Part shown: positions 2,348-30,888 of the stretch, one piece after another | Layout: each line of letters starts with the position of its first letter | How positions within the stretch are numbered: the first letter of the stretch is position 1 | Source: Gammaproteobacteria bacterium | GTDB lineage: Bacteria; Pseudomonadota; Gammaproteobacteria; S012-40 | Assembly (NCBI GenBank): GCA_029881255.1 | Contig: JAOUMY010000001.1 | Location: 434,001-498,000 of the forward strand | Reading direction: 5' to 3' | DNA length: 64,000 bases | Notes under the pieces: generated by a model | What the model was told of the DNA's origin: nothing | What the model saw: the letters and a program-made list of their open reading frames with translations, nothing else | Databases searched by the model: none | Made by a program: the position numbers and the translations under genes

Positions 2348-2478
2348 TCATTTCTCCCGTTATAAAACGCTGCTCACTGCCTATTTGGGCTTCCCGCGAT
2401 TGTAAAGCGTATATTTCAGGCTTTCCAGGAAAATGCGGGCTTATATCAGCCTTTACCGCCATCATTAAAAGAACATGT

Positions 2479-2505
2479 GTTGGATTTCCGGCTTTTTAAT
2501 CCAAC
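2479..2505 (+). repeat. Stem-loop in the ilvA leader
   Basis: A perfect 8-bp inverted repeat (GTTGGATT / AATCCAAC) with an 11-base loop lies 44 bases before the ilvA start. No T-run follows, so it is not a standard terminator. It could be an operator or a leader structure. No leader peptide rich in branched-chain residues was found. Confidence 0.35.
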
Positions 2506-2548
2506 AAAGTGCTATCATCGCCATTTGTTCAGCGCGCGCAGGTTCTAC

Positions 2549-4069
2549 ATGTCCACGGATTATCTAAAACGTATACTCAGAGCCCAGGTATACGATGTCG
2601 CCATTGAGACACCACTCGATTATGCCAAGGGACTTTCTAGCAAGATAAAAAACCAGGTCTGGATCAAACGAGAAGATCTCCAGCCTGTGTTTTCATTTAA
2701 GATTCGTGGCGCATATAACAAAATCGTTCAACTCTCGGACGAAGCCAGACAAAAAGGTATCGTCGTCGCTTCTGCCGGGAATCACGCCCAAGGGGCGGCA
2801 CTGGCGTGTCAGCGCCTCGGAATACGAAATACCATCGTCATGCCAAAAACCACGCCTGCAATCAAGATTGACTCTGTTCGTAGCTACGGCAGCGAAGTCG
2901 TTCTCCACGGAAACACCTACGACGAGGCTTATTTACACGCACGAAAGCTAGAGGACGAACATGGATATACATTTGTGCATCCATATGATGACCCGGATGT
3001 CATCGCCGGTCAGGGCACTGTAGCAATGGAAATACTTCGCCAGCATTCGGCTGAGTTGGACGCGGTATTTGTTCCAGTAGGCGGCGGTGGATTGATCGCT
3101 GGCGTTTCTGCCTACATCAAACAGGTCAGACCTGAAATCAAGATAATTGGTGTCGAAGCGGAAGATTCCGCTTGTTTATACGCAGCACTCCAGGCCGGCG
3201 AACGAGTCATTCTCGACCAGGTTGGCATATTTGCCGACGGCGTGGCCGTTCGTCAGATTGGTGAAGAGACTTTCAAGCTTGCGAAACAGTATGTCGACGA
3301 GGTTATTACTGTAGACGTTGATGAAATTTGTGCTGCGATCAAAGATATATTCGACGATACCCGCTCGATTGCCGAACCGGCAGGTGCGCTTGCAATAGCG
3401 GGAATAAAAAAATATGTGCAGCGTGAGCGATACATGGATTTGCAGTTTGTTGCGATCGATAGTGGCGCCAATATGAATTTCGATCGACTACGATACGTTG
3501 CAGAGCGCTCAGAGCTGGGCGAGCAACGTGAAGCGTTACTAGCCGTTACGATTGATGAACAACCCGGCAGTTTCCATCGCTTTTGTCATCTTATTGGACA
3601 ACGCAATATCACCGAGTTTAATTATCGCTACGCCGACGCCAAGATCGCGCATATCTTTGTCGGAATTCAATTACGTGAAATTCCAGAAGAAAAAATTCAA
3701 CTGATGAAACGCCTTGAAGAACACGGCTACCAGGTACTGGACATGTCTCGCAATGAAATGGCGAAGCTGCATGTCAGGTATATGGTCGGAGGCCATGCAC
3801 CAGGCGTCGATAACGAAATCATTTATCGCTTTGAATTTCCTGAACGTCCAGGCGCACTATTGCTGTTTCTTACGAAAATGGGACAGCGCTGGAATATCAG
3901 CATGTTTCATTATCGCAACCATGGCGCAGCATACGGACGTGTATTAGCTGGAATTCAGGTTCCGAATAATGAACGAAATGACTTTCAGGATTTTCTAAAA
4001 GACCTGGGCTATCCCTATTGGGATGAGACTGACAATGAGTCCTACCGCCTTTTTCTTGGCAAACCCTAA
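2549..4069 (+). CDS. ilvA: Biosynthetic threonine dehydratase (threonine deaminase)
   Basis: A PLP enzyme that deaminates threonine to 2-oxobutanoate, the first committed step of isoleucine synthesis. The catalytic domain shows the PLP-lysine context VFSFKIRGAYNK, the substrate loop SAGNHAQGAAL and the phosphate-binding PVGGGGLIAG. The last ~180 residues form two ACT-like regulatory modules, the second beginning near FPERPGAL, as in isoleucine-inhibited IlvA. The start is placed at the ATG at 2549 (506 residues, beginning MSTDYLKRILRAQVYDVA), which matches the family's usual N-terminus; the 24 codons upstream look non-coding. It is a single gene and is convergent with the ParA gene. Confidence 0.96.
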   Translation: MSTDYLKRILRAQVYDVAIETPLDYAKGLSSKIKNQVWIKREDLQPVFSFKIRGAYNKIVQLSDEARQKGIVVASAGNHAQGAALACQRLGIRNTIVMPKTTPAIKIDSVRSYGSEVVLHGNTYDEAYLHARKLEDEHGYTFVHPYDDPDVIAGQGTVAMEILRQHSAELDAVFVPVGGGGLIAGVSAYIKQVRPEIKIIGVEAEDSACLYAALQAGERVILDQVGIFADGVAVRQIGEETFKLAKQYVDEVITVDVDEICAAIKDIFDDTRSIAEPAGALAIAGIKKYVQRERYMDLQFVAIDSGANMNFDRLRYVAERSELGEQREALLAVTIDEQPGSFHRFCHLIGQRNITEFNYRYADAKIAHIFVGIQLREIPEEKIQLMKRLEEHGYQVLDMSRNEMAKLHVRYMVGGHAPGVDNEIIYRFEFPERPGALLLFLTKMGQRWNISMFHYRNHGAAYGRVLAGIQVPNNERNDFQDFLKDLGYPYWDETDNESYRLFLGKP

Positions 4070-4095
4070 CAAAGGCGCCGGTTATACCCGCAAAA

Positions 4096-4797
4096 TCAGC
4101 GGACAGCGTACAGATTTGGTTTAGACGGTGATTGAGATGCTTGTGTGGTGCTCGCTTCTTCGACCCACTCTATCAAGGAACGCCATTCTTCCTTGTCCCG
4201 GTCGCTATTAGCACCATTCAGCTCTAAAACACTAACTCCGTGTTCTGCGGCCTGCATATATGTCTCATTCTGCGACAATACAGCGATAAAACTGATATCG
4301 AGATTAGAAAATATACGTTGCATCGCGTAATAAGCCGGGCTTTCTTTTTGAACACGATTTGCAATTATTCCTACTTTTGCACGACTGGGATACATACGGA
4401 AAAACGCATGTAAATCGCGTATAAAGATAGCCGTAGCACGAATATCAATTGGCGATGGGGAAACTGGAATCAGAATACGATCAACGTCTTTCAACGCAGA
4501 ATTGATCTTGTATAAATCGACACCTGCCGGTGTATCAATAATCAGGCGATCGGCATTGGTGGGTAATCTCATTTGCCATGCACGGGTAGCACGAGCGTTT
4601 TTAGCGTGAGCTTCGATACCGTGAATATGGGGTTTGGAGTAGGGGCGATGGCGCAGCCATTCACTACTCGATCCTTGTGGATCGTAGTCTTTAACTACGG
4701 TATTCAACTCCTTGGAGGCGTAATAACCGGCAAGATTGGTCGCCAGTGTCGTTTTACCACTACCACCTTTGGAGTTTAAAACCATCACCGTCAACAT
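4096..4797 (-). CDS. Orphan ParA-family ATPase
   Basis: A P-loop ATPase of the ParA/MinD superfamily, 233 residues. It has a deviant Walker A motif, LNSKGGSGKTTLATN, with the signature lysine, then DYDPQGSSSEW and IIDTPAGVD (Walker B region). The start at 4797 is chosen because AGGAG lies seven bases upstream; the ATG 33 bases earlier lacks this. ParA proteins position DNA or large cargo by dynamic binding to the nucleoid or membrane. There is no ParB, MinE or carboxysome gene nearby, so the cargo is unknown. An accessory partner encoded elsewhere is likely. Confidence 0.85.
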   Translation of the reverse strand: MLTVMVLNSKGGSGKTTLATNLAGYYASKELNTVVKDYDPQGSSSEWLRHRPYSKPHIHGIEAHAKNARATRAWQMRLPTNADRLIIDTPAGVDLYKINSALKDVDRILIPVSPSPIDIRATAIFIRDLHAFFRMYPSRAKVGIIANRVQKESPAYYAMQRIFSNLDISFIAVLSQNETYMQAAEHGVSVLELNGANSDRDKEEWRSLIEWVEEASTTQASQSPSKPNLYAVR

Positions 4798-4820
4798 AAC
4801 ACTTCTCCTATCCGCTTCCA

Positions 4821-4888
4821 TTCTGTACAACTTACTACGGGCCTTTATGGCTCAAAGGCTTTCGCCCATGTCATAATTTCGTACAGAA
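4821..4888. repeat. Inverted 8-mers between the parA-like gene and asnB
   Basis: TTCTGTAC at 4821-4828 and its exact reverse complement GTACAGAA at 4881-4888 flank a 52-base spacer in the divergent intergenic region. They could be paired regulator half-sites, but 8-mers at this spacing can also arise by chance. Confidence 0.25.
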
Positions 4889-4933
4889 ACTGAAAAAACT
4901 TTAAGCAAATATGTAACAAATTGATGAATTTAC

Positions 4934-6937
4934 ATGTGCGGCATTTCTACAATATTGCGCTTTGACAAGCAACCAATATCCGTGGACCTTTTGACTCAAA
5001 TGAACCGCGCGTTGAGTCACCGAGGGCCTGATGCCTATGGTATATTTCACCAGGCTCACCTGGGGCTAGGCCATACCCGCCTTAGCATCATCGACCGTGC
5101 TCATGGCCAACAGCCCATGTCCACTAGCGACCAACGCTTTACCATTACCTTCAATGGCGAGATCTATAATTACCAGGAATTGGCCTCTCAACTCCTCCGA
5201 CTGGGTCACAATTTCAAAACCCGCTCAGACACAGAAGTACTACTTTGTTTACACCAGGAATACGGTGATAGAGCAATCAGCATGTTACGAGGCATGTTTA
5301 GCTATGTGCTTTATGACAGAGAATCTGACAGGTTATTACTGGTGAGAGATCGTCTTGGAATCAAGCCACTCTATTATTTTCAGGATGATACCTATTTCCT
5401 CGCCGCTTCCGAGATCAAAGCCATATTTGCCTCAGGTGTGGTGACTCCAGAACTTGATCCGCAGACTATTTTTGACCATTTCTATTACCAGTTCTCTATT
5501 CCTGGTCATACCAGTTTTACAGGTATACACGAAGTACTGCCTGGACATTACTATTCCATCGACACACTTGGACGGACCGAAACTAAGCGCTATTGGAGCC
5601 TTATCTTCCCGGCTGATGGTGAATATGAGAATCAAAACGAAAACTATTGGAAACGACAGCTAGAGGATATGTTGGACGAAGTCAGCCAACAGCATACTGT
5701 CGGAGAGGTCCCCGTTGGGGCTTATCTTTCGGGCGGACTGGACTCATCAACGACCTGCCATTTTCTTCAGAAACACAGTCCTGGGCCCATTCAAACCTTT
5801 TCTATACATTTCGAGAATGCCGCCAGTGACGAATCATACGCCTACAAACCGGTAGCCGAGGCCCTTGGCGTCGCAAATCACGAGCTTACTATACCCGAAC
5901 CAGTGCCTAGCGACTTTTTGGCTAATCTACAACAAAGTGTCTACCATCTCGAGCAACCGCAGCGCATGGCAGTCGATATTCCCCATTTTTTATTATCTGA
6001 CTTTACCCGGAAATCCGGGATCAATGTCGTATACACAGGGGATGGGGCCGACGAGATATTTGGCGGCTATGACAGCTACCGCCAGGACGCGATGCGCCTA
6101 TGGGGAAACCAGGAATCTGATAGAGGCCGCAGGAAACAGCTGTATATGGAGGAATTCATTAAGGAGTTTCCACGAGAACATATTCAATTGCTTTGGTCGC
6201 TTCACCAACCTGAAAACCAGCGTAACGTCACCAAGCAGTTTGGCACCTATCCGGTCTGGTATGACTTTTGGCATATTCTCCAAAACTCAAGCAACAAGAT
6301 TTGGAATGCCGATTTCCTTGCCAGCATAAACACATCTACTCGCATACACGAACTGTCCGACAGAATTCGTCCAGAAGTATCGGGGCTAGCCCCTCTGAAT
6401 CAATCGCTCAACTACGAAATCAACAGCCGGCTATGTAACTGGATATTACTCAAAAGTGATCGGCTAAGCATGGCCCACGGCGTTGAAGCTCGTGTCCCCT
6501 TTCTTGATCATAAACTTGTGGAACTGACTGCTCGAATACCACCCCAGTTTAAATTACGCGGTATGGATGAAAAATACCTACTCAAGACGATAATGAACGA
6601 CCGGTTACCTCAGATACCGGGTGCATACAAAAAGAGAGGGTTTTACACACCCATTAGAGAATGGTTTTTTGCACCTGGACGTAACCATGGCGATTTTCTG
6701 GATTATGAGCCTATTTCTTCTGCCGGAATCTTCAATCACACAGAAGTACAGAAAATACTTTCAGACATACAAGAGGTTACGGAAGTGAACGACATGAACA
6801 CCTATTATCATGTAATGCGCATGGAATGGATGTTAATGCTAGTACTCACAACGCAGATACTTTACGACCAATTTGTGCTTAAGAAAGCTGCCGTATTTCA
6901 CGATATAGACTCAGGAGCCAGGGGGGGTCGCCCTTAG
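4934..6937 (+). CDS. asnB: Asparagine synthase (glutamine-hydrolysing) family protein
   Basis: A 667-residue two-domain enzyme. The N-terminal Ntn glutaminase domain begins MCGIS, so Cys2 is the nucleophile after Met removal; RLSIID and FNGEIYNY follow. The C-terminal synthetase domain carries the PP-loop SGGLDSS near residue 265 and GDGADEIFGGY. Family chemistry is the ATP-dependent transfer of glutamine ammonia to aspartate. It is longer than E. coli AsnB (554 residues), a size usual for AsnB-like enzymes found with surface polysaccharide or osmolyte genes. A role in amidating another substrate is therefore possible. The start follows an AT-rich stretch without a strong ribosome-binding site, but the N-terminal cysteine fixes it. 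Confidence 0.9.
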   Translation: MCGISTILRFDKQPISVDLLTQMNRALSHRGPDAYGIFHQAHLGLGHTRLSIIDRAHGQQPMSTSDQRFTITFNGEIYNYQELASQLLRLGHNFKTRSDTEVLLCLHQEYGDRAISMLRGMFSYVLYDRESDRLLLVRDRLGIKPLYYFQDDTYFLAASEIKAIFASGVVTPELDPQTIFDHFYYQFSIPGHTSFTGIHEVLPGHYYSIDTLGRTETKRYWSLIFPADGEYENQNENYWKRQLEDMLDEVSQQHTVGEVPVGAYLSGGLDSSTTCHFLQKHSPGPIQTFSIHFENAASDESYAYKPVAEALGVANHELTIPEPVPSDFLANLQQSVYHLEQPQRMAVDIPHFLLSDFTRKSGINVVYTGDGADEIFGGYDSYRQDAMRLWGNQESDRGRRKQLYMEEFIKEFPREHIQLLWSLHQPENQRNVTKQFGTYPVWYDFWHILQNSSNKIWNADFLASINTSTRIHELSDRIRPEVSGLAPLNQSLNYEINSRLCNWILLKSDRLSMAHGVEARVPFLDHKLVELTARIPPQFKLRGMDEKYLLKTIMNDRLPQIPGAYKKRGFYTPIREWFFAPGRNHGDFLDYEPISSAGIFNHTEVQKILSDIQEVTEVNDMNTYYHVMRMEWMLMLVLTTQILYDQFVLKKAAVFHDIDSGARGGRP

Positions 6938-6970
6938 CAAAATTCTATAATTCAATAAGTTGTACTAAAA

Positions 6971-8230
6971 GTGAAAATACCACTTAAAAGCTCATGGTTA
7001 ATATTTTTCCTGCCCCTACTCGTGCTTGGAGTAATTTCAGCGCTCATACCTTTTTTAAAAAATCTGCCTGATGCCATACAGACGCAACTAGCTGTCCTAC
7101 CGTATCTGGCCATAGTAGGCACAGGGGTATTAGGCTCTGTATTTCGCAAATATCGTTTCGTATATCTCGCAGTAGTGCTGGGTGTGGCCTATTGGAATTT
7201 GCAAATAACGCATGCCGAACAATCCCCAAACAGTTCATTGGTAGATGCTCTATATGGCGTTTATTTCGTAATCAATCTCGTAATAATTAACTATCTCCCC
7301 GAAAAACGATTTTTTACGATCGCAGGAGCTGGAATATTTTTGAGTTTCATAACCCAGTTGTTATTTGGGAAATGGCTAATTGTCGATTTTAGTGAAAAGG
7401 TTACCGGCCTGCTAAATTACGATCTCGATTTATTGATTGGCTTTGTCAATCGAACCAACTTGCCGACTGTAGTTTTACTCCTATACGTAGCAGCAAGTGT
7501 ATTTCTCTTTCTGCGATATGGAAAAACCCGCTCCGTTTTTGAAAGCGGATTCCTTGGCACTCTCGTGGCTACCGCTCTGATGCTCAATAGCGAAATGACT
7601 CCTCCAAGCGCGGGAATGTTTATGTTAGCAGCGGGATTAATTGCAATGAGTGCACTTGTCCAAAATTCGTACTTTATTGCGTATATAGATGAACTCACTG
7701 AACTGCCAGGTCGACGCGCTTTAAATGAAGAACTCGCTCGATTGCGCGGACAATATTGCATAGCCATGTTAGACGTAGATCACTTTAAGAAATTTAACGA
7801 CACACATGGTCATGATCTTGGTGATCAGGTTTTGCGCATGGTTGCTGCGAAACTTGGTCGCGTCAGCGGCGGTGGAAAGGCATTCCGTTACGGCGGCGAA
7901 GAGTTTTGCATCGTGTTCAGTAGCAAGGACATGAAAACGGCTTTTCCTCATTTATCTGCAGTGCGTCAGTCCATAGATGAAACACGAATGATACAACGCA
8001 GCAAGGATCGCCCCAAGAGTCGACCAGATATCATTCCTAAGAAAACCCGAAAATTTAAGGAAGTTCACGTTACCATTAGCATAGGCGTAGCGGAAAAAAT
8101 CCCGGAGCTCGAACAACCTGAAGATGTGTTGAAGGCGGCTGACAAAGCACTATATGTCGCGAAAGAAAAAGGTCGAAATCGTATTAGTCAGTATGGAATA
8201 AAATTGGTAGAGGTTCCTATTAACACTTGA
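6971..8230 (+). CDS. Membrane-anchored GGDEF diguanylate cyclase
   Basis: A 419-residue protein with a GTG start. The first ~235 residues carry about six or seven transmembrane helices with no recognisable sensor family. A GGDEF domain follows, starting at DELTELPGRRAL. The active site reads GGEEF at 308-312 and the metal-binding Asp lies in LDVDHFKKFND, so it should make cyclic di-GMP. No RxxD inhibitory site is present five residues before GGEEF. A basic ~20-residue insert (roughly 345-365) interrupts the domain before VTISIGVAE. It lies 33 bases after asnB and converges on the oxidase-associated operon. Confidence 0.9.
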   Translation: MKIPLKSSWLIFFLPLLVLGVISALIPFLKNLPDAIQTQLAVLPYLAIVGTGVLGSVFRKYRFVYLAVVLGVAYWNLQITHAEQSPNSSLVDALYGVYFVINLVIINYLPEKRFFTIAGAGIFLSFITQLLFGKWLIVDFSEKVTGLLNYDLDLLIGFVNRTNLPTVVLLLYVAASVFLFLRYGKTRSVFESGFLGTLVATALMLNSEMTPPSAGMFMLAAGLIAMSALVQNSYFIAYIDELTELPGRRALNEELARLRGQYCIAMLDVDHFKKFNDTHGHDLGDQVLRMVAAKLGRVSGGGKAFRYGGEEFCIVFSSKDMKTAFPHLSAVRQSIDETRMIQRSKDRPKSRPDIIPKKTRKFKEVHVTISIGVAEKIPELEQPEDVLKAADKALYVAKEKGRNRISQYGIKLVEVPINT

Positions 8231-8236
8231 GCCGTC

Positions 8237-8623
8237 TTAGCGAGCCCCATACGCCAATGGGAACGCTAAAATAGTCTCTTCACCTTTTATCTCTGCCTTA
8301 ACGTACAAGGTATCAGTTTTTGGGTCGCGAACGCGCATCGCACGACGGTACACACCAACGTTTCCATCCTCTATCGCCTGGACCCATTTCCCAGCTTGTT
8401 CTATACGTAGATTGACTAGAAGTCCGGATGCAGGTTTACGACGTGGTAGATTTACAATAATTAAGAATTCCATCATGCCTTTTTCAATAAATGGCGGACG
8501 CGTCTCTACCCTAAACGTCATATCCTTCCATTCAAGCACTGGGGATTTTGGTATCTCGCCAACGCAGGAAACCATTAGCGCCACGAAAAGCACAATAAAA
8601 TAAAATTTATTTCGCATGTTCAC
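8237..8623 (-). CDS. Small lipoprotein, possibly FixH/YtkA-like fold
   Basis: A 128-residue protein with a lipoprotein signal ending LMVSC. The mature part is beta-rich, with an EDGNVGVYRRAMRV segment reminiscent of the Ig-like YtkA/FixH-type domain in respiratory clusters. That resemblance is weak, and I do not recognise a family securely. It overlaps the upstream small cytochrome gene by 17 bases and is the last gene of the ccoG operon. It probably acts at the periplasmic face during assembly or function of the nearby oxidase. Confidence 0.6.
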   Translation of the reverse strand: MNMRNKFYFIVLFVALMVSCVGEIPKSPVLEWKDMTFRVETRPPFIEKGMMEFLIIVNLPRRKPASGLLVNLRIEQAGKWVQAIEDGNVGVYRRAMRVRDPKTDTLYVKAEIKGEETILAFPLAYGAR

Positions 8624-21625: not shown

Positions 21626-22129
21626 CTAACCCTGAGCCTTCTCCACAACTTTACCAATCATGTAGTCCATTTCCTGATAAAGAACTCGGCCCGGTTGTTT
21701 TGAGCGAACGATACCGTTTTTATCTATGATAAAAGTCCATGGATCACCCTTCACTTGATAGGTGACAAATGCCTCGGGATTCATATACTGATCCATGTGA
21801 AGAAAAGCAACCTGGTCGCCATATTTATCCATCATGGATTTGAGCATTTGCAACTGCTTATCACACACAGTACAGTGACCTGGTGTCGCGAACTCTAAAA
21901 CAATGGGTTTTCCCAACGCCAAAGCCTCGTCCACTGACAATTTGTACATGCGCGCATCGGGATAACGATAACTAGTTAGCCTACTAAGATCACCACCAAC
22001 GTCATCAGATTTCTTTGTACGCAGTGACGGAGCTTGCTGACCAATATTCAAGGCACCATCTGGCCGCTCAAGAGAACAAGAAACAAAGAGAGGAAGCCAT
22101 AAAATGACCGCAAGTTTAGCGAGATTCAT
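21626..22129 (-). CDS. Thioredoxin-fold lipoprotein
   Basis: A 167-residue protein from the ATG at 22129. The signal ends FVSC (lipidation at Cys18). The thioredoxin-like domain has the redox pair Cys86/Cys89 in ATPGHCTVCDKQL, the cis-proline loop KGDPWTFIIDKNG, and a typical C-terminal helix. It probably reduces heme-binding cysteines or delivers copper to the periplasmic side of the oxidase, as TlpA and Sco proteins do. The gene overlaps the CcoN-like fragment gene by 14 bases. Confidence 0.82.
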   Translation of the reverse strand: MNLAKLAVILWLPLFVSCSLERPDGALNIGQQAPSLRTKKSDDVGGDLSRLTSYRYPDARMYKLSVDEALALGKPIVLEFATPGHCTVCDKQLQMLKSMMDKYGDQVAFLHMDQYMNPEAFVTYQVKGDPWTFIIDKNGIVRSKQPGRVLYQEMDYMIGKVVEKAQG

Positions 22130-22646
22130 AGCCTTTTTCCCACCCTGTGCAGGTTTTGAATAAATTATATGCCCAAATACAATTCGCAAGAAGCACCAGA
22201 GTGCCAAAAATCCCCATAGTAGCCAACAACGGCTTTACAATATGCTCCACTTCCGCTGGAGTTGAATTCACACTTGCGATACCACCCATAATTCCAGCAA
22301 TGACAAAAAATACAACCATGCCGATCACGCCAATATTGTGCACCCAAAAGTGGGCTTTAACCAAGGTCAAACTATAGATTGGTCGCTTTATCAACCTGGG
22401 AACCACATAGTATACCGCAGCGAATATCGCCATTTCGACCCAACCCAGAAGATTAATATGGGTATGGCCTCGCACAATTAGATTTCCATGTAGGCGGTGG
22501 TCAACAAAATGCCGAAGCTCCGACACCCCACCCATGATTGCGCCCCACGAAAACCCGATCAGACTATATATAATGCAGGCGTAGATAAACCACAGCGTGT
22601 ATTTCCGATACACTATTTCCTGTTGATGTTCCCAAGGTTTAGACAT
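22116..22646 (-). CDS. Stand-alone domain resembling the C-terminal part of CcoN
   Basis: A 176-residue protein from the ATG at 22646; a GTG at 22670 that overlaps the previous stop (TAGTG) is also possible. It has four or five helices. The stretch IVRGHTHINLLGWVEM (His61 and His63), AAVYYVVPRLIKRPIYSLTLV and then AHFWVHNIGVIG closely follows the CcoN region that carries the heme b/b3 histidines and the next helices, including GIMGG. The CuB helices are missing, so it cannot be an oxidase alone. It may bind heme and act in assembly or as a quinol/cytochrome-linked subunit. It is second in the four-gene operon. Confidence 0.8.
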   Translation of the reverse strand: MSKPWEHQQEIVYRKYTLWFIYACIIYSLIGFSWGAIMGGVSELRHFVDHRLHGNLIVRGHTHINLLGWVEMAIFAAVYYVVPRLIKRPIYSLTLVKAHFWVHNIGVIGMVVFFVIAGIMGGIASVNSTPAEVEHIVKPLLATMGIFGTLVLLANCIWAYNLFKTCTGWEKGYESR

Positions 22647-22669
22647 AATTTTTTCCGAAATTTTAAACA

Positions 22670-23245
22670 CTACTCTTTATCAGACGAGGGCTTATCTCTG
22701 ATATCTTCATATTTGCCTTGCCAATCTTCGGGCGCCCACATTTTGACCATATTATCGATAAATTCTGATCTTTCCGGTGGCGGAACTTTAGCAACAGATG
22801 AACCCGCGTCTGCGCGCAATTCCGAAAGAAATATCGCGATTACTTTTCTATCTTCGGCTGGTATATCACTTACGTAAGCAGCTTCTTTAGGCGGAAGGCC
22901 ATGATCCAGCGTCGGTGAACCATAGACTTCTTCAGGCTTCAAAAGAAAACTTTCTATCCATTCGACCGTTCGCTTTGAACCAATCCCATCAAGTGACAAA
23001 CCCATGCTTGTTCCTGTACGTAAAGCTCTATGACACGAATTACAACGATTCTTTCGATAGAGCTCAGAGCCCACTTTTCCAGCTTCAGAAAAGTCGAAAT
23101 GTGTTAGCTGTTGAAACATTGGTTTTTCGGAATTCATACGATAGGTTTCAAGACCTATGTATGCGATAACAGCCAATAGAAAGAAGATACCGAATATAAT
23201 AAAAAGAATTTTTTCGCCGGATTTTAACGGCTGCTTTTTACCCAT
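22670..23245 (-). CDS. Membrane-anchored monoheme cytochrome c
   Basis: A 191-residue protein: KSGEKILF, one anchor helix (about 13-30), then a periplasmic domain with CNSCH in YRKNRCNSCHRALRTGT, LSLDGIGSKRTVEW and a helical end, RKVIAIFLSEL. A charged ~50-residue tail follows. It is a paralogue of the cytochrome at 15685-16182, and it is the first gene of the four-gene operon. It is likely an electron carrier anchored beside the oxidase or beside the CcoN-like fragment encoded next. Confidence 0.87.
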   Translation of the reverse strand: MGKKQPLKSGEKILFIIFGIFFLLAVIAYIGLETYRMNSEKPMFQQLTHFDFSEAGKVGSELYRKNRCNSCHRALRTGTSMGLSLDGIGSKRTVEWIESFLLKPEEVYGSPTLDHGLPPKEAAYVSDIPAEDRKVIAIFLSELRADAGSSVAKVPPPERSEFIDNMVKMWAPEDWQGKYEDIRDKPSSDKE

Positions 23246-24353: not shown

Positions 24354-24654
24354 TAATCCACCTCCCTAACAAGTTCAAAAATGCAAGATCTCATAGAATC
24401 CGTGGCACATACCACGGCAGAGGACGCCATTCAAACACTAAAACAAAAAGGTGTCAACAGAATAAACAACAACATAATCAAGATTAGAGAAATACATTGG
24501 CGCAGCTGATCAAAAAATAAACAAAACTATTTTCCGATAAAAATTGTCGGGATGCATCGAACGAACTAGCACTCACATTATGATGACGGTCACGAACAAA
24601 TCCGTTATCCTTCCGCGCCTATCAACGCATTTCAGCAACGTATATAAGACGAAA
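24354..24654. other. Divergent intergenic region with hairpin
   Basis: About 300 bases between the c4 operon and the GT-C gene. CCGTGG and CCACGG form a 6-bp hairpin at 24400-24417 in the leader of the minus-strand transcript. No FNR-type TTGAT-N4-ATCAA box was seen. An in-frame TTG and ATGs upstream of 24655 mean that part of this region might be the N-terminus of the next protein. Confidence 0.4.
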
Positions 24655-26133
24655 ATGAATCATAAAGTCATTCCTGAAAAATATTTGGCACTTCTTTCAC
24701 TCATAGTGTGGGGCGCTCTCGTACTCGGGCTCGGACTAGTGCGATTCGACGCCTATGGACTTGATGAGGGAGCAGCCCGTGCATTAATGCTGAACTGGTC
24801 TGTTGCCGACAACATTGTAAATCCGATTTTTGTTTTGGGAGCGCCGGATTTTCGCGCGCTTATGTACTTACCCATAGGTTTGTATTGGACGGGAAGCATT
24901 TTAGCGACAAAAGTCTTTAGCATTATAATTGCGTTTATAGGTGCTTTTTTCCTGTATCGTTGGACGAAACGGTTAGACAACTCCGAGAGTGCGCTTGTCG
25001 CTACCGCACTATATCTGGTGTCACCGATTGTGCTCACGCAAATCGATTCTCTGGGCGCCGGATTGTACGTCATACTTGCATTCGCACTCGGTTCCTGGCT
25101 GGACAACGCTTATCGACAGACTGATCGTTATTTTGGCGCTTGGTATTTTTTACAGCTGGTGTGGATCGCAGTAGTAATCGGATTACACCCAATCGGGCTC
25201 GCTTATCCGCTTGCGTTGATCTACCGATGGTATAGTACGCCACACCCACAGAAAAAATCGCGTCATATTTTCGTCGGCATTGCTATCAGCTCATTTTTTT
25301 CACTCGCTATCACAATGGGTTGGCCTAGTGTTGACTGGTTTAACAATCCATTGACAAGTCTCAGCCTATCGCTTGATGGAAGCATCGTTCAGAGTACCGA
25401 ACACATAAACTGGGTGCCAGGAGTCATATTAGCTTTTCTTGCTTCAATTTTGTTGGTAACCGAGATTAACACCATTAAATCCGATGTCCTTTGCAGCATG
25501 TTAGCCATCGCCATGGTTATTGGGATTGTTACTGGAGATGCGACCTGGGCTACTTTGGTAGTCACATACGCGATTTACCGCGGCATACCAAGGCTAATAG
25601 CGTGGAATAGTCGTAAGGAAGCCGGGAGCTTTCTCGGCCAAAAAGGCGCCACTATCGTGGTTGCTTTTGTACTTTCAACATTCTTTATGCTTCAAGCAAA
25701 GGAACATTGGCGGGACATCAAACTTCAGGTGCTGACACCAGAAGACGAACTAATAGAAAATCTCAGCAGTATTGCATTGGACAAAGATTCGGCCTTTAGA
25801 GCGGCCAGTCAATGGCCCGGACGCACTATGATCGCAACACGTCGCGACGTTTTACCGCTACCGCCAGGATTTAATTCCGCTGAGGAGCTGTATGAGAACG
25901 CGGTAAAAGGCGTAACTCACATTCTTTTCGATCCATATGATAAAAACAATGTTGATCTAGCGCGCAATCTGGCGCAATTGGTGTCGGTGACCGAAACATT
26001 GGCACTTAATCGTGATGCAGCATTGGTACGAGTAAAGGAACACAACGTTCAACTACACATCCGACCAAACAACCTTGGTGAAACTTCCGACACATCGACA
26101 AAAGAAAGTGACGCAAGCATAGCCGACAAATGA
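24655..26133 (+). CDS. Polytopic membrane protein of GT-C glycosyltransferase type
   Basis: About 492 residues from the ATG at 24655; earlier starts are possible. It has around ten helices and, between helix 1 and 2, the acidic motif FDAYGLDEGAAR, as in lipid-linked sugar transferases of the PMT/ArnT group, where an Asp/Glu in the first periplasmic loop is catalytic. The last ~120 residues form a soluble domain containing ILFDPYDKNNVDLA. It sits 10 bases before the channel-like gene, so the three genes look like one operon. Family assignment is from topology and the one motif. Confidence 0.6.
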   Translation: MNHKVIPEKYLALLSLIVWGALVLGLGLVRFDAYGLDEGAARALMLNWSVADNIVNPIFVLGAPDFRALMYLPIGLYWTGSILATKVFSIIIAFIGAFFLYRWTKRLDNSESALVATALYLVSPIVLTQIDSLGAGLYVILAFALGSWLDNAYRQTDRYFGAWYFLQLVWIAVVIGLHPIGLAYPLALIYRWYSTPHPQKKSRHIFVGIAISSFFSLAITMGWPSVDWFNNPLTSLSLSLDGSIVQSTEHINWVPGVILAFLASILLVTEINTIKSDVLCSMLAIAMVIGIVTGDATWATLVVTYAIYRGIPRLIAWNSRKEAGSFLGQKGATIVVAFVLSTFFMLQAKEHWRDIKLQVLTPEDELIENLSSIALDKDSAFRAASQWPGRTMIATRRDVLPLPPGFNSAEELYENAVKGVTHILFDPYDKNNVDLARNLAQLVSVTETLALNRDAALVRVKEHNVQLHIRPNNLGETSDTSTKESDASIADK

Positions 26134-26143
26134 GGTTAATGAG

Positions 26144-27142
26144 ATGAACAAGGCATACAGGACTTTTATCCTGTGGTTAATCTGGGGCTCTGCTGCGATT
26201 ACCATTTATCTCGGACTTTATCTCGATACCGACATTCTTCAATTTCTACGTCAAGACGAAAGCAAAATCACTTGGATAATCACGCTACTCTTTCTGGTTG
26301 GGATAGTAGGGAGTTTTTTTCTCACTATTGCCATCACTAAAGAAGCTATCGAGGCCCAAATCCAAGATCAACTAGCAAAAAAAAGTGGGCTTGCCGGGCT
26401 GCAGCCAAGCGCCAGAAAGAAAAAAGCCGTTAATCGTTTTTACGACTCACTTAAAGTCACCGCTTTATCCAATGAGGCACCTAATGTTGAAGCGCTGATG
26501 GAAACTGAGTTTTCCTCGTATTCCCGCATGAGTCATGGCGTAGAGACCCTGGGCAATCTTCTCATAACGTTAGGTCTAATTGGCACTGTAATGGGTTTAA
26601 CGCTAACGCTTACCGGGTTAACAACATCTCTTGATGCATTGGGGCATGATCAAGAATTGCTATTACAAGGCCTACGTAAAGCAATGGGGGGCATGGGAAC
26701 AGCATTTTATACCACACTGCTTGGCGCTGTACTCGGAGGGGTGTTGTTACGAATATTTGCGTTAATTACGGAAAACGGGATTTCTAGTCTAAGCGAAACA
26801 TTAATCAGAACATGCATGGTTCATTGCGCACCTGATTTTAAACAGAGCATGGAAAAGGACATCCGCTTCCTTAATGCGGAACTGGAAATGCTTGGAGACA
26901 AAGTAATTGCCTTAAAGCAGGCGTTTAACGACTCAAAAGTATCAATGAATGAATTTCGGGAGTCTATAAAGGAACTTTACAAGCTTTCCGGGGATGACGA
27001 TGGAGTTTATACCCTAAAAGAAACGCTACGCATGCAAAAGTACTATCGCGCCTTGCTCAAGCAGGAGCTTCAGCTAATGAATAGGATGAATCGCTCCTGG
27101 TGGGGCAGATTCAAGGAATTTCTGATTTCAAGAAAAGATTAG
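26144..27142 (+). CDS. MotA/TolQ/ExbB-family proton channel protein
   Basis: A 332-residue protein. Two N-terminal helices (8-26, 43-64) are followed by a ~70-residue cytoplasmic segment, then the family core helices at 136-158 (GNLLITLGLIGTVMGLTLTL) and 186-208 (AFYTTLLGAVLGGVL). A ~120-residue cytoplasmic, probably helical tail ends the protein. This is the MotA-type four-helix plan. The partner is encoded 15 bases downstream. Known relatives use ion flow to drive rotation or force across the envelope (flagellar stator, Tol, Ton, Zorya). No flagellar, tol or ton genes are nearby. Confidence 0.88.
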   Translation: MNKAYRTFILWLIWGSAAITIYLGLYLDTDILQFLRQDESKITWIITLLFLVGIVGSFFLTIAITKEAIEAQIQDQLAKKSGLAGLQPSARKKKAVNRFYDSLKVTALSNEAPNVEALMETEFSSYSRMSHGVETLGNLLITLGLIGTVMGLTLTLTGLTTSLDALGHDQELLLQGLRKAMGGMGTAFYTTLLGAVLGGVLLRIFALITENGISSLSETLIRTCMVHCAPDFKQSMEKDIRFLNAELEMLGDKVIALKQAFNDSKVSMNEFRESIKELYKLSGDDDGVYTLKETLRMQKYYRALLKQELQLMNRMNRSWWGRFKEFLISRKD

Positions 27143-27157
27143 GATAGTCACACACAG

Positions 27158-27931
27158 ATGGCTAGAAGACGTCGTTTTACATACACCAACATATACGAAA
27201 GTTTTTCTGACGTTTCTCTATTAATGCTCGCCACTTTTATATTTTTGCTCGTAACAATACTACTCACCTCGCGCATGATGCAGGAATATGAGGTGCCCAA
27301 GTTGAAAGAAGAAATCACCGATCTAAAAAATAAATTGGCCGCTGCGCAAATCGATGTAAATCAGTACACCAGCACGCTTGAGCAAATGATTGTATCTGCA
27401 GAGGCCGGTAGCCCAATAGATAAATTGATCGAGACCGCAACCTTTGGACGAAAGGATTTTGATTTGTTCGTCGAGGGATTGAAAGACTTGCCTGGCGAGG
27501 ATCTGCACTTGGTTGTAGATGCGTCGGGATCGATGCATGGATTGACATCATTTTTGATTCCCGTGTTACGCGCAATAATTGTACGATCACAAAAACGACT
27601 TGGCGCTATTACGTGGTTTACTGACGGCGAGGCGGAAACATATACCGGCACCATGGGTGAAATGTTCGACAAACTAATGTCCGGCGCACCATTTGGCGGA
27701 AATCGCGAAACTATCGGAAAAGCCTTCCGTGTAGCGACCAGAAACGCCAGCGTTCCAGGCGCCTATTTACTCGTTGGAGATGAACCATCTGATGACGAGA
27801 TTTATTATTCAGATATTCCGAGCCCCGTATTCAGTCTTCCACTTGGTCGTTCTGACCCTGAGACCAACCGCGAATACAAGAAAATTGCCGATAAAACAAA
27901 TGGAAGGATGCTACACCTGGATTTTCGTTAA
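27158..27931 (+). CDS. MotB/ExbD-like membrane protein with periplasmic VWA domain
   Basis: A 257-residue protein. A basic start and FSDVSLLMLATFIFLLV form one helix (about 19-38), preceded by Asp18 at the site of the ion-binding aspartate of MotB/ExbD. A coiled-coil-like linker (46-80) follows, then a von Willebrand A domain: MIDAS motif DASGSMHG at 121-128 and ITWFTDGEAE with Asp156. MotB and ZorB carry an OmpA-like peptidoglycan-binding domain at this place; here it is replaced by a metal-dependent adhesion-type domain. Together with the channel gene upstream this forms a likely stator pair with an unusual output domain. Confidence 0.85.
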   Translation: MARRRRFTYTNIYESFSDVSLLMLATFIFLLVTILLTSRMMQEYEVPKLKEEITDLKNKLAAAQIDVNQYTSTLEQMIVSAEAGSPIDKLIETATFGRKDFDLFVEGLKDLPGEDLHLVVDASGSMHGLTSFLIPVLRAIIVRSQKRLGAITWFTDGEAETYTGTMGEMFDKLMSGAPFGGNRETIGKAFRVATRNASVPGAYLLVGDEPSDDEIYYSDIPSPVFSLPLGRSDPETNREYKKIADKTNGRMLHLDFR

Positions 27932-28028: not shown

Positions 28029-28433
28029 ATGATGACAACAATACCTGCAGAAACTACGCTGATTGGGGAGATCCGAAGCAAAGGCAAGATGCGCATAGAA
28101 GGACATGTGGAAGGCACCGGCGATATAGATGGAATGCTGCTGCTCACACGTCAATGCGTTTGGAAGGGAAAGATCATTGCCGATGTCGTAATCGTTGAGG
28201 GAACAATGGAAGGCGATATAATCGCCCGACAGAAGCTGGAGATCTATTCCAACGCGAAGATTAGCGGATCAATCATTTGCCCCAAGATTTCGATTATGGA
28301 AGGGGCCAGTGTCAACGGAACGTTGCGCATGAAGCAGCCCGAACCACCTATCGGCTTGCTTGAATCCAAGGCTCGTAAAGATAAGAAAGCGCAAGCCGAA
28401 GAAAAGCGCACAGCTAAAGCGGTGGGTGAATAA
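28029..28433 (+). CDS. Bactofilin
   Basis: A 134-residue protein with the bactofilin (DUF583) beta-helix core: TTLIGEIRSKGKMRIEGHVEG, then repeated G-x-I and V-x-G turns to GASVNGTLRM, with short unstructured ends. Bactofilins polymerise without nucleotide and scaffold cell-wall enzymes or envelope machines. It lies 97 bases after the VWA-domain gene on the same strand, so it may be cotranscribed or have its own promoter. Its stop is directly against the stop of dgkA. Confidence 0.93.
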   Translation: MMTTIPAETTLIGEIRSKGKMRIEGHVEGTGDIDGMLLLTRQCVWKGKIIADVVIVEGTMEGDIIARQKLEIYSNAKISGSIICPKISIMEGASVNGTLRMKQPEPPIGLLESKARKDKKAQAEEKRTAKAVGE

Positions 28434-28811: not shown

Positions 28812-30830
28812 TCAATGTAATCCGAGCAAAATAACCGATCCATCCCAAGAATCTCTTGCTATAAATTCATTCTGCTCTCTTTGTACACGATTCATCATAT
28901 CTACGTGTTCTGTAAATGAATAGGATAGTGGATCGAGAAAAGCGCCAACTATCTTTCTTCTCGCAAAAAATCCCATAATTTGTTTTTCCACTTTCTCAAT
29001 CGTGCCGACAAAAATATGCTTTCCGTTATTTAGTTTATATTGAGTGGGCCATATTCTAATTAGCGTTTCACTATTCACATCCGAGTCTTTACCAAAGCGA
29101 AAAACACGTATTTCTTCTCGTCCTTGATACAGGTTTGGTATTACTGATTGTTCTTTCAGTGGAATCTGAGGCGCAAGAAAACGTAAAACATTTACAAAAT
29201 TGAAATCCAGCGTTTCTTCCCAGCCATTAGTGAGTAAAATCTTGTCAATTTCTTCAGTTGATCCTGCCCATTGGAAGGTCAAAGGCTGCTTAGCTCTTCC
29301 AAATAAGTCGAAACGATAGGCTGGAGAAATATTACGCCAAAAACGATGCGTCCAATCCGACTCACTGACAATAATATGCGACTCTTCATAGACAAATCTT
29401 CTTGCATCAGATTCATACTGAAAAAACAGATTCAATGTATAAATGCCGAAGAAAATACCTACAGTTACAATACCAGTCTTCTTTACATCTATTTTCTCAT
29501 GCGCTCTTCTACGCAAAACAAGAGCAACCACTAAAATCCACGCAATACCGAAACTGTACCCAACCATTACATCACTAAACCAAAAGCCCCCTAAAACAAG
29601 ACCAGACAAGGCAAGCATAAAAAGAAGGATGATATAAATAAAGTATAAAAATGCGCGAATTCTTGCACTAAGTCTTTCGCTGAAAATAATGACAACGAAA
29701 CCGTAAACTAGCACAGGCATTATCGCATGCCACGCTGGAAAATTTTCCTGAAAACCAGGACCATCCAAAACAAGGGGACGGCTAATCTCGAATACCGCGT
29801 CAAGAAACAGATAGGCGAAATATCCGAATCCGAGCAATAAACTCCAATACCTAAGCATTCGCCAGTCGGAATGTTTCCAGTGAATAAATACAAAGCCAAG
29901 GACGATTGCGGCTAGAACAACTCGATCTCCCAACTGATAGATACCAATTAAGAATTTATCGAGCCGTGGCCAACGTGCCTGTTGCAAGAAATTGAAAATC
30001 GATTGATCGAAAAACACACCTTCTTCGCTTACTGTTAAGGCGTGTATCCCCCAGATAAAAATAGAACTGAAAAACAAAAGACAGCACAGCCACCAGAATA
30101 ACGCGATACCGGGAGTATAATCAGGATCCAGAAGCTGTTTCGACATTTTACCGACACGCGGATGTCGAATACTCCATTGATATACTGAATCAATTTTTGA
30201 AGCTATCCACGGACTCATTGCGGTTGTGGTTTTTTTAGCCAGCCAGTAACTCACCCACAAGGACAAAACCATAATCACAATTATGAGCGCTAGTCTGCCT
30301 GTCACGTCCGACGCAATACCTATGGATGTGCCGAAAATAATTCCCGGCACTAAAACGACCGGCGCCCATACAATTGCCGACGCAACATTTACTGTCATGA
30401 AACGCATGCCCGGCATATTCATCATTCCGGCAACTGCTGGAATAATAGGCCTGACAGGTCCGACAAACCTACCAAACAAGATACTTTTTGCGCCATGGCG
30501 TAAAAAAAATTGCCTGGTATTTTCCAGCAACTCCGGCTTTTTTACGAAAGGCCATATTTTTTCAATTTTGCTTGAAAACAGGCGACCTATCCAAAAACTA
30601 ACGCCATCCCCTGCAATGGCTCCTAATGTCGTCCATAGAAATGCCGATGAAAATTCCATGACGCCGGTACCAATAAGCGCACCAATACCAAACATCGCTG
30701 CAACGCCGGGGACGATAAGTCCCACGACGAGTAACGATTCAGACATCGCAATTAGAAAAACAACGAGGCCGGCCCAGCCGGGGTGATCACGAATCCAGTC
30801 GAATATGGGTGTTAGACTATCCAGATCCAT
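28812..30830 (-). CDS. DedA-PAP2-LssY fusion membrane protein
   Basis: About 672 residues from the ATG at 30830. Residues ~1-200 form a DedA/SNARE-associated domain (ESLLVVGLIVPG, GDGVSFWIGR, FGRFVGPVRPIIPAVAG). The middle ~200 residues are a PAP2-like membrane domain with several helices. The last ~190 residues match the LssY C-terminal domain (RFWRNISPAYRFDLFGRAK, TLDFNFVNVLRFLAPQ). DedA proteins include polyprenyl-phosphate and phospholipid flippases; PAP2 domains dephosphorylate lipids. The canonical PAP2 histidine motifs are weak here. It probably handles lipid carriers, which suits the dgkA neighbour. Confidence 0.82.
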   Translation of the reverse strand: MDLDSLTPIFDWIRDHPGWAGLVVFLIAMSESLLVVGLIVPGVAAMFGIGALIGTGVMEFSSAFLWTTLGAIAGDGVSFWIGRLFSSKIEKIWPFVKKPELLENTRQFFLRHGAKSILFGRFVGPVRPIIPAVAGMMNMPGMRFMTVNVASAIVWAPVVLVPGIIFGTSIGIASDVTGRLALIIVIMVLSLWVSYWLAKKTTTAMSPWIASKIDSVYQWSIRHPRVGKMSKQLLDPDYTPGIALFWWLCCLLFFSSIFIWGIHALTVSEEGVFFDQSIFNFLQQARWPRLDKFLIGIYQLGDRVVLAAIVLGFVFIHWKHSDWRMLRYWSLLLGFGYFAYLFLDAVFEISRPLVLDGPGFQENFPAWHAIMPVLVYGFVVIIFSERLSARIRAFLYFIYIILLFMLALSGLVLGGFWFSDVMVGYSFGIAWILVVALVLRRRAHEKIDVKKTGIVTVGIFFGIYTLNLFFQYESDARRFVYEESHIIVSESDWTHRFWRNISPAYRFDLFGRAKQPLTFQWAGSTEEIDKILLTNGWEETLDFNFVNVLRFLAPQIPLKEQSVIPNLYQGREEIRVFRFGKDSDVNSETLIRIWPTQYKLNNGKHIFVGTIEKVEKQIMGFFARRKIVGAFLDPLSYSFTEHVDMMNRVQREQNEFIARDSWDGSVILLGLH

Positions 30831-30831
30831 G

Positions 30832-30845
30832 TTTCGTATACGAAA
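30832..30845. promoter_or_regulatory. Perfect 14-bp palindrome at the DedA-PAP2 start
   Basis: TTTCGTATACGAAA reads identically on both strands and lies immediately before the chosen ATG at 30830, covering the place of the ribosome-binding site. It could be an operator. It would be inside the coding region if an upstream start were used. Confidence 0.35.
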
Positions 30846-30888
30846 GTAAAAGAAATGATGCCGGGAGAAAAAGCTCCCGGCCAAATTA

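Follow-up and report, generated by a model that had tools for sequence, protein, structure and literature searches.

A MotA/TolQ-type ring gene paired with the gene of a rotor with a VWA-like head: a predicted single-vWA branch of ion-driven motors

Introduction

Ion-driven 5:2 motors supply the power for flagella and gliding, for upkeep of the outer membrane and import of nutrients, and for defence against phages. In MotAB, TolQR, ExbBD and ZorAB, a ring protein of family PF01618 and a one-helix, Asp-bearing partner together make up such a motor. A stretch of 64,000 nucleotides of a gammaproteobacterial genome (the whole of which we call the window) contains two adjacent genes that resemble this combination, and an earlier note made from the sequence alone proposed that the partner protein ends in a periplasmic von Willebrand A (VWA) domain. 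The locus thereby raises three questions: whether the two genes could encode a motor, whether the head of the partner is VWA-like, and on what such a head might act.

Results

Architecture of the ring and rotor subunits

The two open reading frames were confirmed at the positions and with the spacing given in the earlier note, i.e. on the same (forward) strand at 26144-27142 and 27158-27931, with 15 nt between them. The first encodes a ring (A) subunit of 332 residues, which matches Pfam MotA_ExbB (PF01618) with E = 1.3e-7 and 31.9 bits (cut-off 22.9) and the PADLOC ZorA models with E = 5e-7. Its four hydrophobic regions, at approximately residues 9-27, 45-63, 139-157 and 184-213, agree with its earlier description as a four-helix protein of the MotA/TolQ/ExbB type, and TM4 is followed by ~120 residues that form a cytoplasmic C-terminal tail of strong heptad periodicity (contrast 0.54, versus 0.20 for shuffled sequence).

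Two motifs of the ring subunit stand out by their conservation: GLIGTVMGL in TM3 (residues 144-152; 26573-26599, forward strand), which includes T148, and MGTAFYTTLL in TM4 (residues 184-193; 26693-26722, forward strand), which includes T191. T148 is present in all 34 gammaproteobacterial ring subunits, and the GLIGTV motif also in 14/14 ring subunits from a second class; T191, within the FYTT motif, is kept in 34/34 and 14/14, respectively. T186 was considered as the second pore threonine of TM4 and rejected because V, I or L replaces it in the second class, which leaves T191 as the conserved one. The TM4 motif lies in register with the LIATAIG segment of TolQ, a register for the threonine that depends on a weak alignment of E. 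coli TolQ to the ring subunit.

The second gene encodes a rotor (B) subunit of 257 residues, made up of a Lys/Arg-rich N-terminus, a pore helix, a linker of helical type and a head that is VWA-like and probably periplasmic; D18, D121, S125 and D208 are invariant in its alignment of 35 rows. There is a single hydrophobic segment, residues 19-37, directly after Asp18 (codon 27209-27211, forward strand), which is proposed to bind the ion where the pore helix starts. Asp18 is found in 35/36 gammaproteobacterial homologues and at 16/16 loci of the second class. The sole homologue with a replaced Asp is that of locus L029 (pore-Asp codon at ~10046), where it is Ala and where the near-identical sister locus L075 keeps the Asp; L029 comes from a metagenome-assembled genome (MAG), and the change may reflect either a genuine inactive allele or a fault in the assembly.

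The linker (27278-27442, forward strand) comprises about 50 residues and is of near-constant length across homologues, and the distance from Asp18 to D121 of the head is 102-108 residues in 49/51 homologues and 122 in the other two. The linker had been called a coiled coil; its coiled-coil character is weak. The N-terminal helix of the rotor aligned with the solved ZorB chains 8vvi_A and 8qyd_F at E = 0.05-0.09, which is suggestive and not significant, and neither TolR nor the MotB/ZorB helices of known structure showed significant sequence similarity to the rotor; weak MotB_plug matches were obtained for 6/35 rotors and weak ExbD matches for 5/35.

The mean net charge of the rotor is +2.1 before the helix and +0.7 over the 20 residues that follow. 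Cysteine is absent from all 35 gammaproteobacterial rotors, which makes a periplasmic head very likely, and is also absent from 15/16 rotors of the second class. Together, hydropathy, charge and the lack of cysteine point to the periplasm, as had been claimed, rather than to the cytoplasmic head that the earlier note had named as evidence against its reading; the other such observation, loss of Asp18 and of the channel residues among orthologues, is contradicted by the counts given above. The earlier description of a MotB/ExbD-like single-helix protein with an Asp before its helix is accurate.

Distribution, pairing and selection

A protein search of 95 relatives detected the rotor gene in 13/13 sampled genomes of the window's family and in 8/82 others of the class. 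In a wider sample of the class, 34/369 genomes (~9%) matched the rotor, one of them (G123) only marginally, and a profile search retrieved it from 21/229 gammaproteobacterial genomes. A phylum-wide sample gave 44 rotor matches, of which 43 were in genomes outside Gammaproteobacteria, in families f200, f220 and f233 with genomes of 1.4-3.1 Mb; this second class may be Zetaproteobacteria.

The pairing is obligate: the ring gene adjoins the rotor gene at the sampled loci, including two second-class loci at contig edges that carry a fragment of the ring gene, and there is one vWA gene per ring gene. No tolR/exbD-type gene recurs beside the pair at these loci, nor did the survey of neighbours suggested earlier, which showed ring and rotor kept together, find any other constant neighbour. 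Close pairs with estimable dS gave dN/dS values of 0.01-0.17, and the gene pair is thus under purifying selection. Relatives of the rotor were absent from 50,697 phage records, 72,556 plasmids and viral contigs, on which ground a mobile element was rejected as an explanation; the ring subunit also had no match on plasmids. One nearly complete genome (G252) holds two diverged motor pairs (L068 and L069), whose rotors are 57% and 45% identical to that of the window, and two copies of the pair also occur in several second-class genomes.

Relation to predicted vWA motors

The idea that an ion-driven motor with a vWA head would be new has to be given up, since the principle has been published as a prediction. 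Proteins of TolQ-like and vWA type, with a pore helix and a proton-binding Asp and without TolR/ExbD, are described in PMC12204202 (Mol Biol Evol 2025, msaf138), where AF3 models are presented and the gene order MotA + vWA1 + vWA2 is modelled as a 5:2 motor; two different vWA genes per ring gene are the predominant arrangement there, and are not stated to be required. For 5:2 ion-driven motors of the PF01618 type, PMC9389320 and PMC11890865 are cited alongside.

Among our loci, L116 (genome G037; 2457-8472) has a MotA-like gene followed by two vWA genes with a Pfam VWA signal, one of them above the cut-off, and was placed in the published type by gene order only. When compared by hhalign, the full rotor profile aligned with the L116 vWA rotor at E = 4e-10 over residues 4-133, and the ring profile with the L116 ring at E = 8e-18 and 38% identity. 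Judged by these profiles, the L116 operon is a distant homologue of the window's pair. The L116-type rotor, used as query, matched in 1/229 gammaproteobacterial genomes. The L116 operon is preceded by genes for three short coiled-coil/lipoprotein-like proteins and a proline-rich protein, which may belong to the L116 machine.

The window's pair shares with these TPH-vWA motors a MotA/TolQ-like ring gene beside the gene of an Asp-bearing pore-helix protein with a vWA head, and the lack of TolR/ExbD. It differs from them in several respects: the published loci have predominantly two vWA genes per ring gene, whereas the window has one, of ~257 codons; the L116 rotors have ~340 residues and a Pfam VWA signal, whereas the head in the window is diverged, with invariant GSMHG-type and GDEP motifs; and the window's ring subunit has a long tail. 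On these comparisons, the pair is placed as a separate, single-vWA branch of a predicted, experimentally untested vWA motor type. A search of open-licence PMC papers found none that deals with the single-vWA form or with what it does.

A GT-C-like neighbour as a possible partner

A third gene could belong to the machine. It is an open reading frame for a GT-C-like polytopic membrane protein (24544-26133, forward strand; likely start ATG at 24655), located 10 bp upstream of the ring gene, and 1/15 members of this protein group matched PMT_2 (E = 3e-5). The gene is co-directional with the pair and beside it in several families: in nine genomes of the window's family it lies upstream, at loci of three other families downstream. 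Among 90 relatives it is present in 20/20 that have the motor and in 0/70 that do not (Fisher p ~2e-20, uncorrected for ancestry); among 229 gammaproteobacterial genomes the figures are 20/21 and 1/208. In the second class, 12/14 tested genomes have it, and in about half of those it lies within ~10 kb of the pair.

Such a pattern would be expected of a three-part envelope machine, in which the motor acts together with the adjacent GT-C-like glycosyltransferase and the head handles its periplasmic glycan or glycosylated product. Several results weaken this reading. A control gene from the respiratory cluster nearby, whose product is a small hypothetical protein, has almost the same profile (19/20 motor-positive and 1/70 motor-negative relatives), so shared ancestry or linkage to that cluster explains much of the GT-C signal. 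A single-gene rpoB tree requires five changes for the motor, of which its well-supported branches force one, and the tree is compatible with a single origin. Where motor and GT-C-like gene lie apart, the latter stays by the cytochrome cluster. In four genomes (G170, G315, G405 and G470) the motor occurs but no GT-C match was obtained, and G124 shows the reverse; many of the sampled loci come from MAGs, in which contamination or gaps can yield single discordant genomes such as G170, G315 and G124.

After the control gene and the rpoB tree, the GT-C-like protein was downgraded from a proven partner. It is a lead to a partner and not an established component, because the control gene co-occurs with the motor nearly as well. 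We regard the three-part machine as unlikely. Its most specific version is also unlikely; here a GT-C-type glycosyltransferase would join a single-vWA 5:2 motor tipped with a MIDAS to form a dedicated envelope machine of three components, whose shared target in the periplasm would be a glycan or a glycosylated partner.

Other genes around the pair were noted. In the window's family a bactofilin gene (28029-28433, forward strand) follows the rotor gene by ~100 bp, and in some relatives whose pair lies elsewhere (L175, L176) it follows the GT-C-like gene. On the reverse strand, 22116-22670 encodes a stand-alone protein of 184 residues that matches COX1 positions 305-431 only (E = 9e-18) and is retained at many loci in the same cluster, which also encodes cytochromes c and a thioredoxin-like protein; it is a conserved partial heme-copper-oxidase-like subunit. 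Also on the reverse strand, 28812-30884 encodes a single protein with DedA/VTT, PAP2 phosphatase and LssY C-terminal domains. Its gene adjoins that of a diacylglycerol kinase and, in the window's family, keeps its place downstream of the pair.

The head domain

The head (residues 96-257; 27443-27928, forward strand) begins with a conserved GRKDFDLF segment, followed by DASGSMHG at residues 121-128. The motifs expected of a MIDAS (DxSxS, Thr and Asp) occur in order, as D121-x-S/T123-x-S125, T185 and D208. In 36 gammaproteobacterial homologues, D121, S/T123, S125 and D208 are each present 36 times and T185 is present in 33, with Asn in the other three; D121 and D208 are 86-87 residues apart in each of the 49 sequences in which the two could be located.

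No Pfam VWA model matched the window's rotor above its cut-off (best, VWA_CoxE at E = 0.18), two of 35 rotors matched at E < 0.1 (best 8e-4), and none of 18 isolated head domains matched. A profile search of the PDB with the rotor head returned no VWA chain, and a search of plasmids for a vWA reference set found nothing. Among reference vWA proteins, E. coli YfbK and YegL aligned weakly with the head, mainly around the first MIDAS motif, and the isolated head gave a weak alignment with the L116 vWA proteins that takes in the DASGSM as well as the GDEP positions.

Since Pfam misses the head above cut-off, its assignment is based on the motifs and on the L116 relative. The Pfam and PDB results would suit a different alpha/beta fold in which the DxSGS motif is a look-alike, but the motif residues are invariant, their order is fixed, the D121-D208 spacing hardly varies, and the first and last motifs align with those of a Pfam-recognised vWA relative, so we consider a non-VWA fold improbable. 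The head is best described, as a motif-level inference from motif order, spacing and this profile similarity, as VWA-like with a MIDAS. Of the claim of a VWA domain with an intact MIDAS, the conserved and ordered motif set is upheld, whereas the VWA label itself finds no Pfam match above cut-off.

Comparison with other ion-driven motors

With TolQR and ExbBD the pair has in common the PF01618 ring, the Asp of the rotor helix and paired pore threonines; the TolR/ExbD head is small, periplasmic and works with TolA/TonB, whereas that of the window's rotor is VWA-like and set on a helical linker. With the MotAB stator it shares the PF01618 ring and the weak rotor matches to MotB_plug and ExbD, and differs in having no OmpA-type domain and in a host genome without a FliG match.

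That last difference bears on whether the pair could be an extra flagellar or gliding stator with its head anchored to the wall or to an adhesin. FliG was detected in 17/20 motor-positive relatives versus 31/70 motor-negative ones, an enrichment that is confounded by ancestry. However, FliG (PF14842) had no match in the window's own genome (G000), which is 99.45% complete, nor in two other motor-positive genomes (G002 and G087); a flagellar-stator role in this host is therefore unlikely. The rotor has no OmpA-like peptidoglycan domain, and no motility gene recurs beside the pair. The flagellar stator was rejected in view of the host genome, and we consider the stator reading as a whole improbable.

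Zorya ZorAB (8QYD, 8VVI) resembles the pair in the ZorA match of the ring, the N-terminus with an Asp before the helix and the extended cytoplasmic tail of the A subunit, but ZorB has a domain for peptidoglycan binding and acts together with ZorCD or ZorE, and neither these partners nor a peptidoglycan-binding ZorB head was found at the window locus or the sampled loci. A Zorya-related defence, in which the motor senses phage cell-wall damage and signals via the ring's cytoplasmic tail, could draw on the PADLOC ZorA match and on the heptad-rich tail but is very improbable, and a defence-island or Zorya assignment was rejected: no recurring partner gene of any kind lies beside the pair, the B subunit has neither a PADLOC match nor an OmpA-type head, the system is present in all 13 sampled genomes of the family and lies in stable housekeeping neighbourhoods, the distribution is stable, and no plasmid, phage or viral contig carries the system.

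Discussion

A probable VWA-headed motor

We think it likely that the pair forms a 5:2 inner-membrane motor driven by the proton- or sodium-motive force, with a dimeric VWA-headed axle. Five copies of the MotA-like protein would form the ring, and two copies of the VWA protein would place their N-terminal helices in its pore. Asp18 would be transiently protonated, or bound to Na+, against T148 and T191 of the ring, and the resulting ion flow would make the axle turn or step against the ring. A metal bound at the MIDAS face could grip an acidic side chain of a partner, to which torque or pull would be delivered via the head. The ZorA tail, which is longer than that of the window's ring, forms a bundle; the heptad-rich tail of the window's ring subunit, likewise cytoplasmic, probably does so too and could serve as a control input.

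The linker, ~7-8 nm if fully helical, would hold the paired heads near the peptidoglycan but short of the outer membrane. With the heads in this position, the partner is probably a wall-bound protein, a soluble protein or an outer-membrane protein that reaches inwards. As to the physiological output, envelope maintenance or the handling of surface polymers is our guess, for which the GT-C-like neighbour offers the best available lead.

With a rotor that ends in a head for metal-dependent binding, and with a linker of near-constant length, this widely inherited branch would represent a new kind of motor work. Because it is simple, with one ring gene and one rotor gene, the single-vWA form is also convenient for testing whether a rotor can pull directly on a partner, without TolA/TonB.

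Further motor-like loci

Motor genes of other arrangements were met in the sample. At L117, L119, L121 and L125 a recurring type consists of a PF01618-like gene and the gene of a one-helix protein with DPFTDLLFNALLGFTFLF and a further C-terminal domain; the gene of a conserved membrane protein of ~170 residues follows, and FHA proteins are encoded nearby in some cases. At L123 (4077-6700), a MotA-like gene lies between genes for FHA-domain-like proteins and a PP2C-like phosphatase, which suggests that this motor is phospho-controlled.
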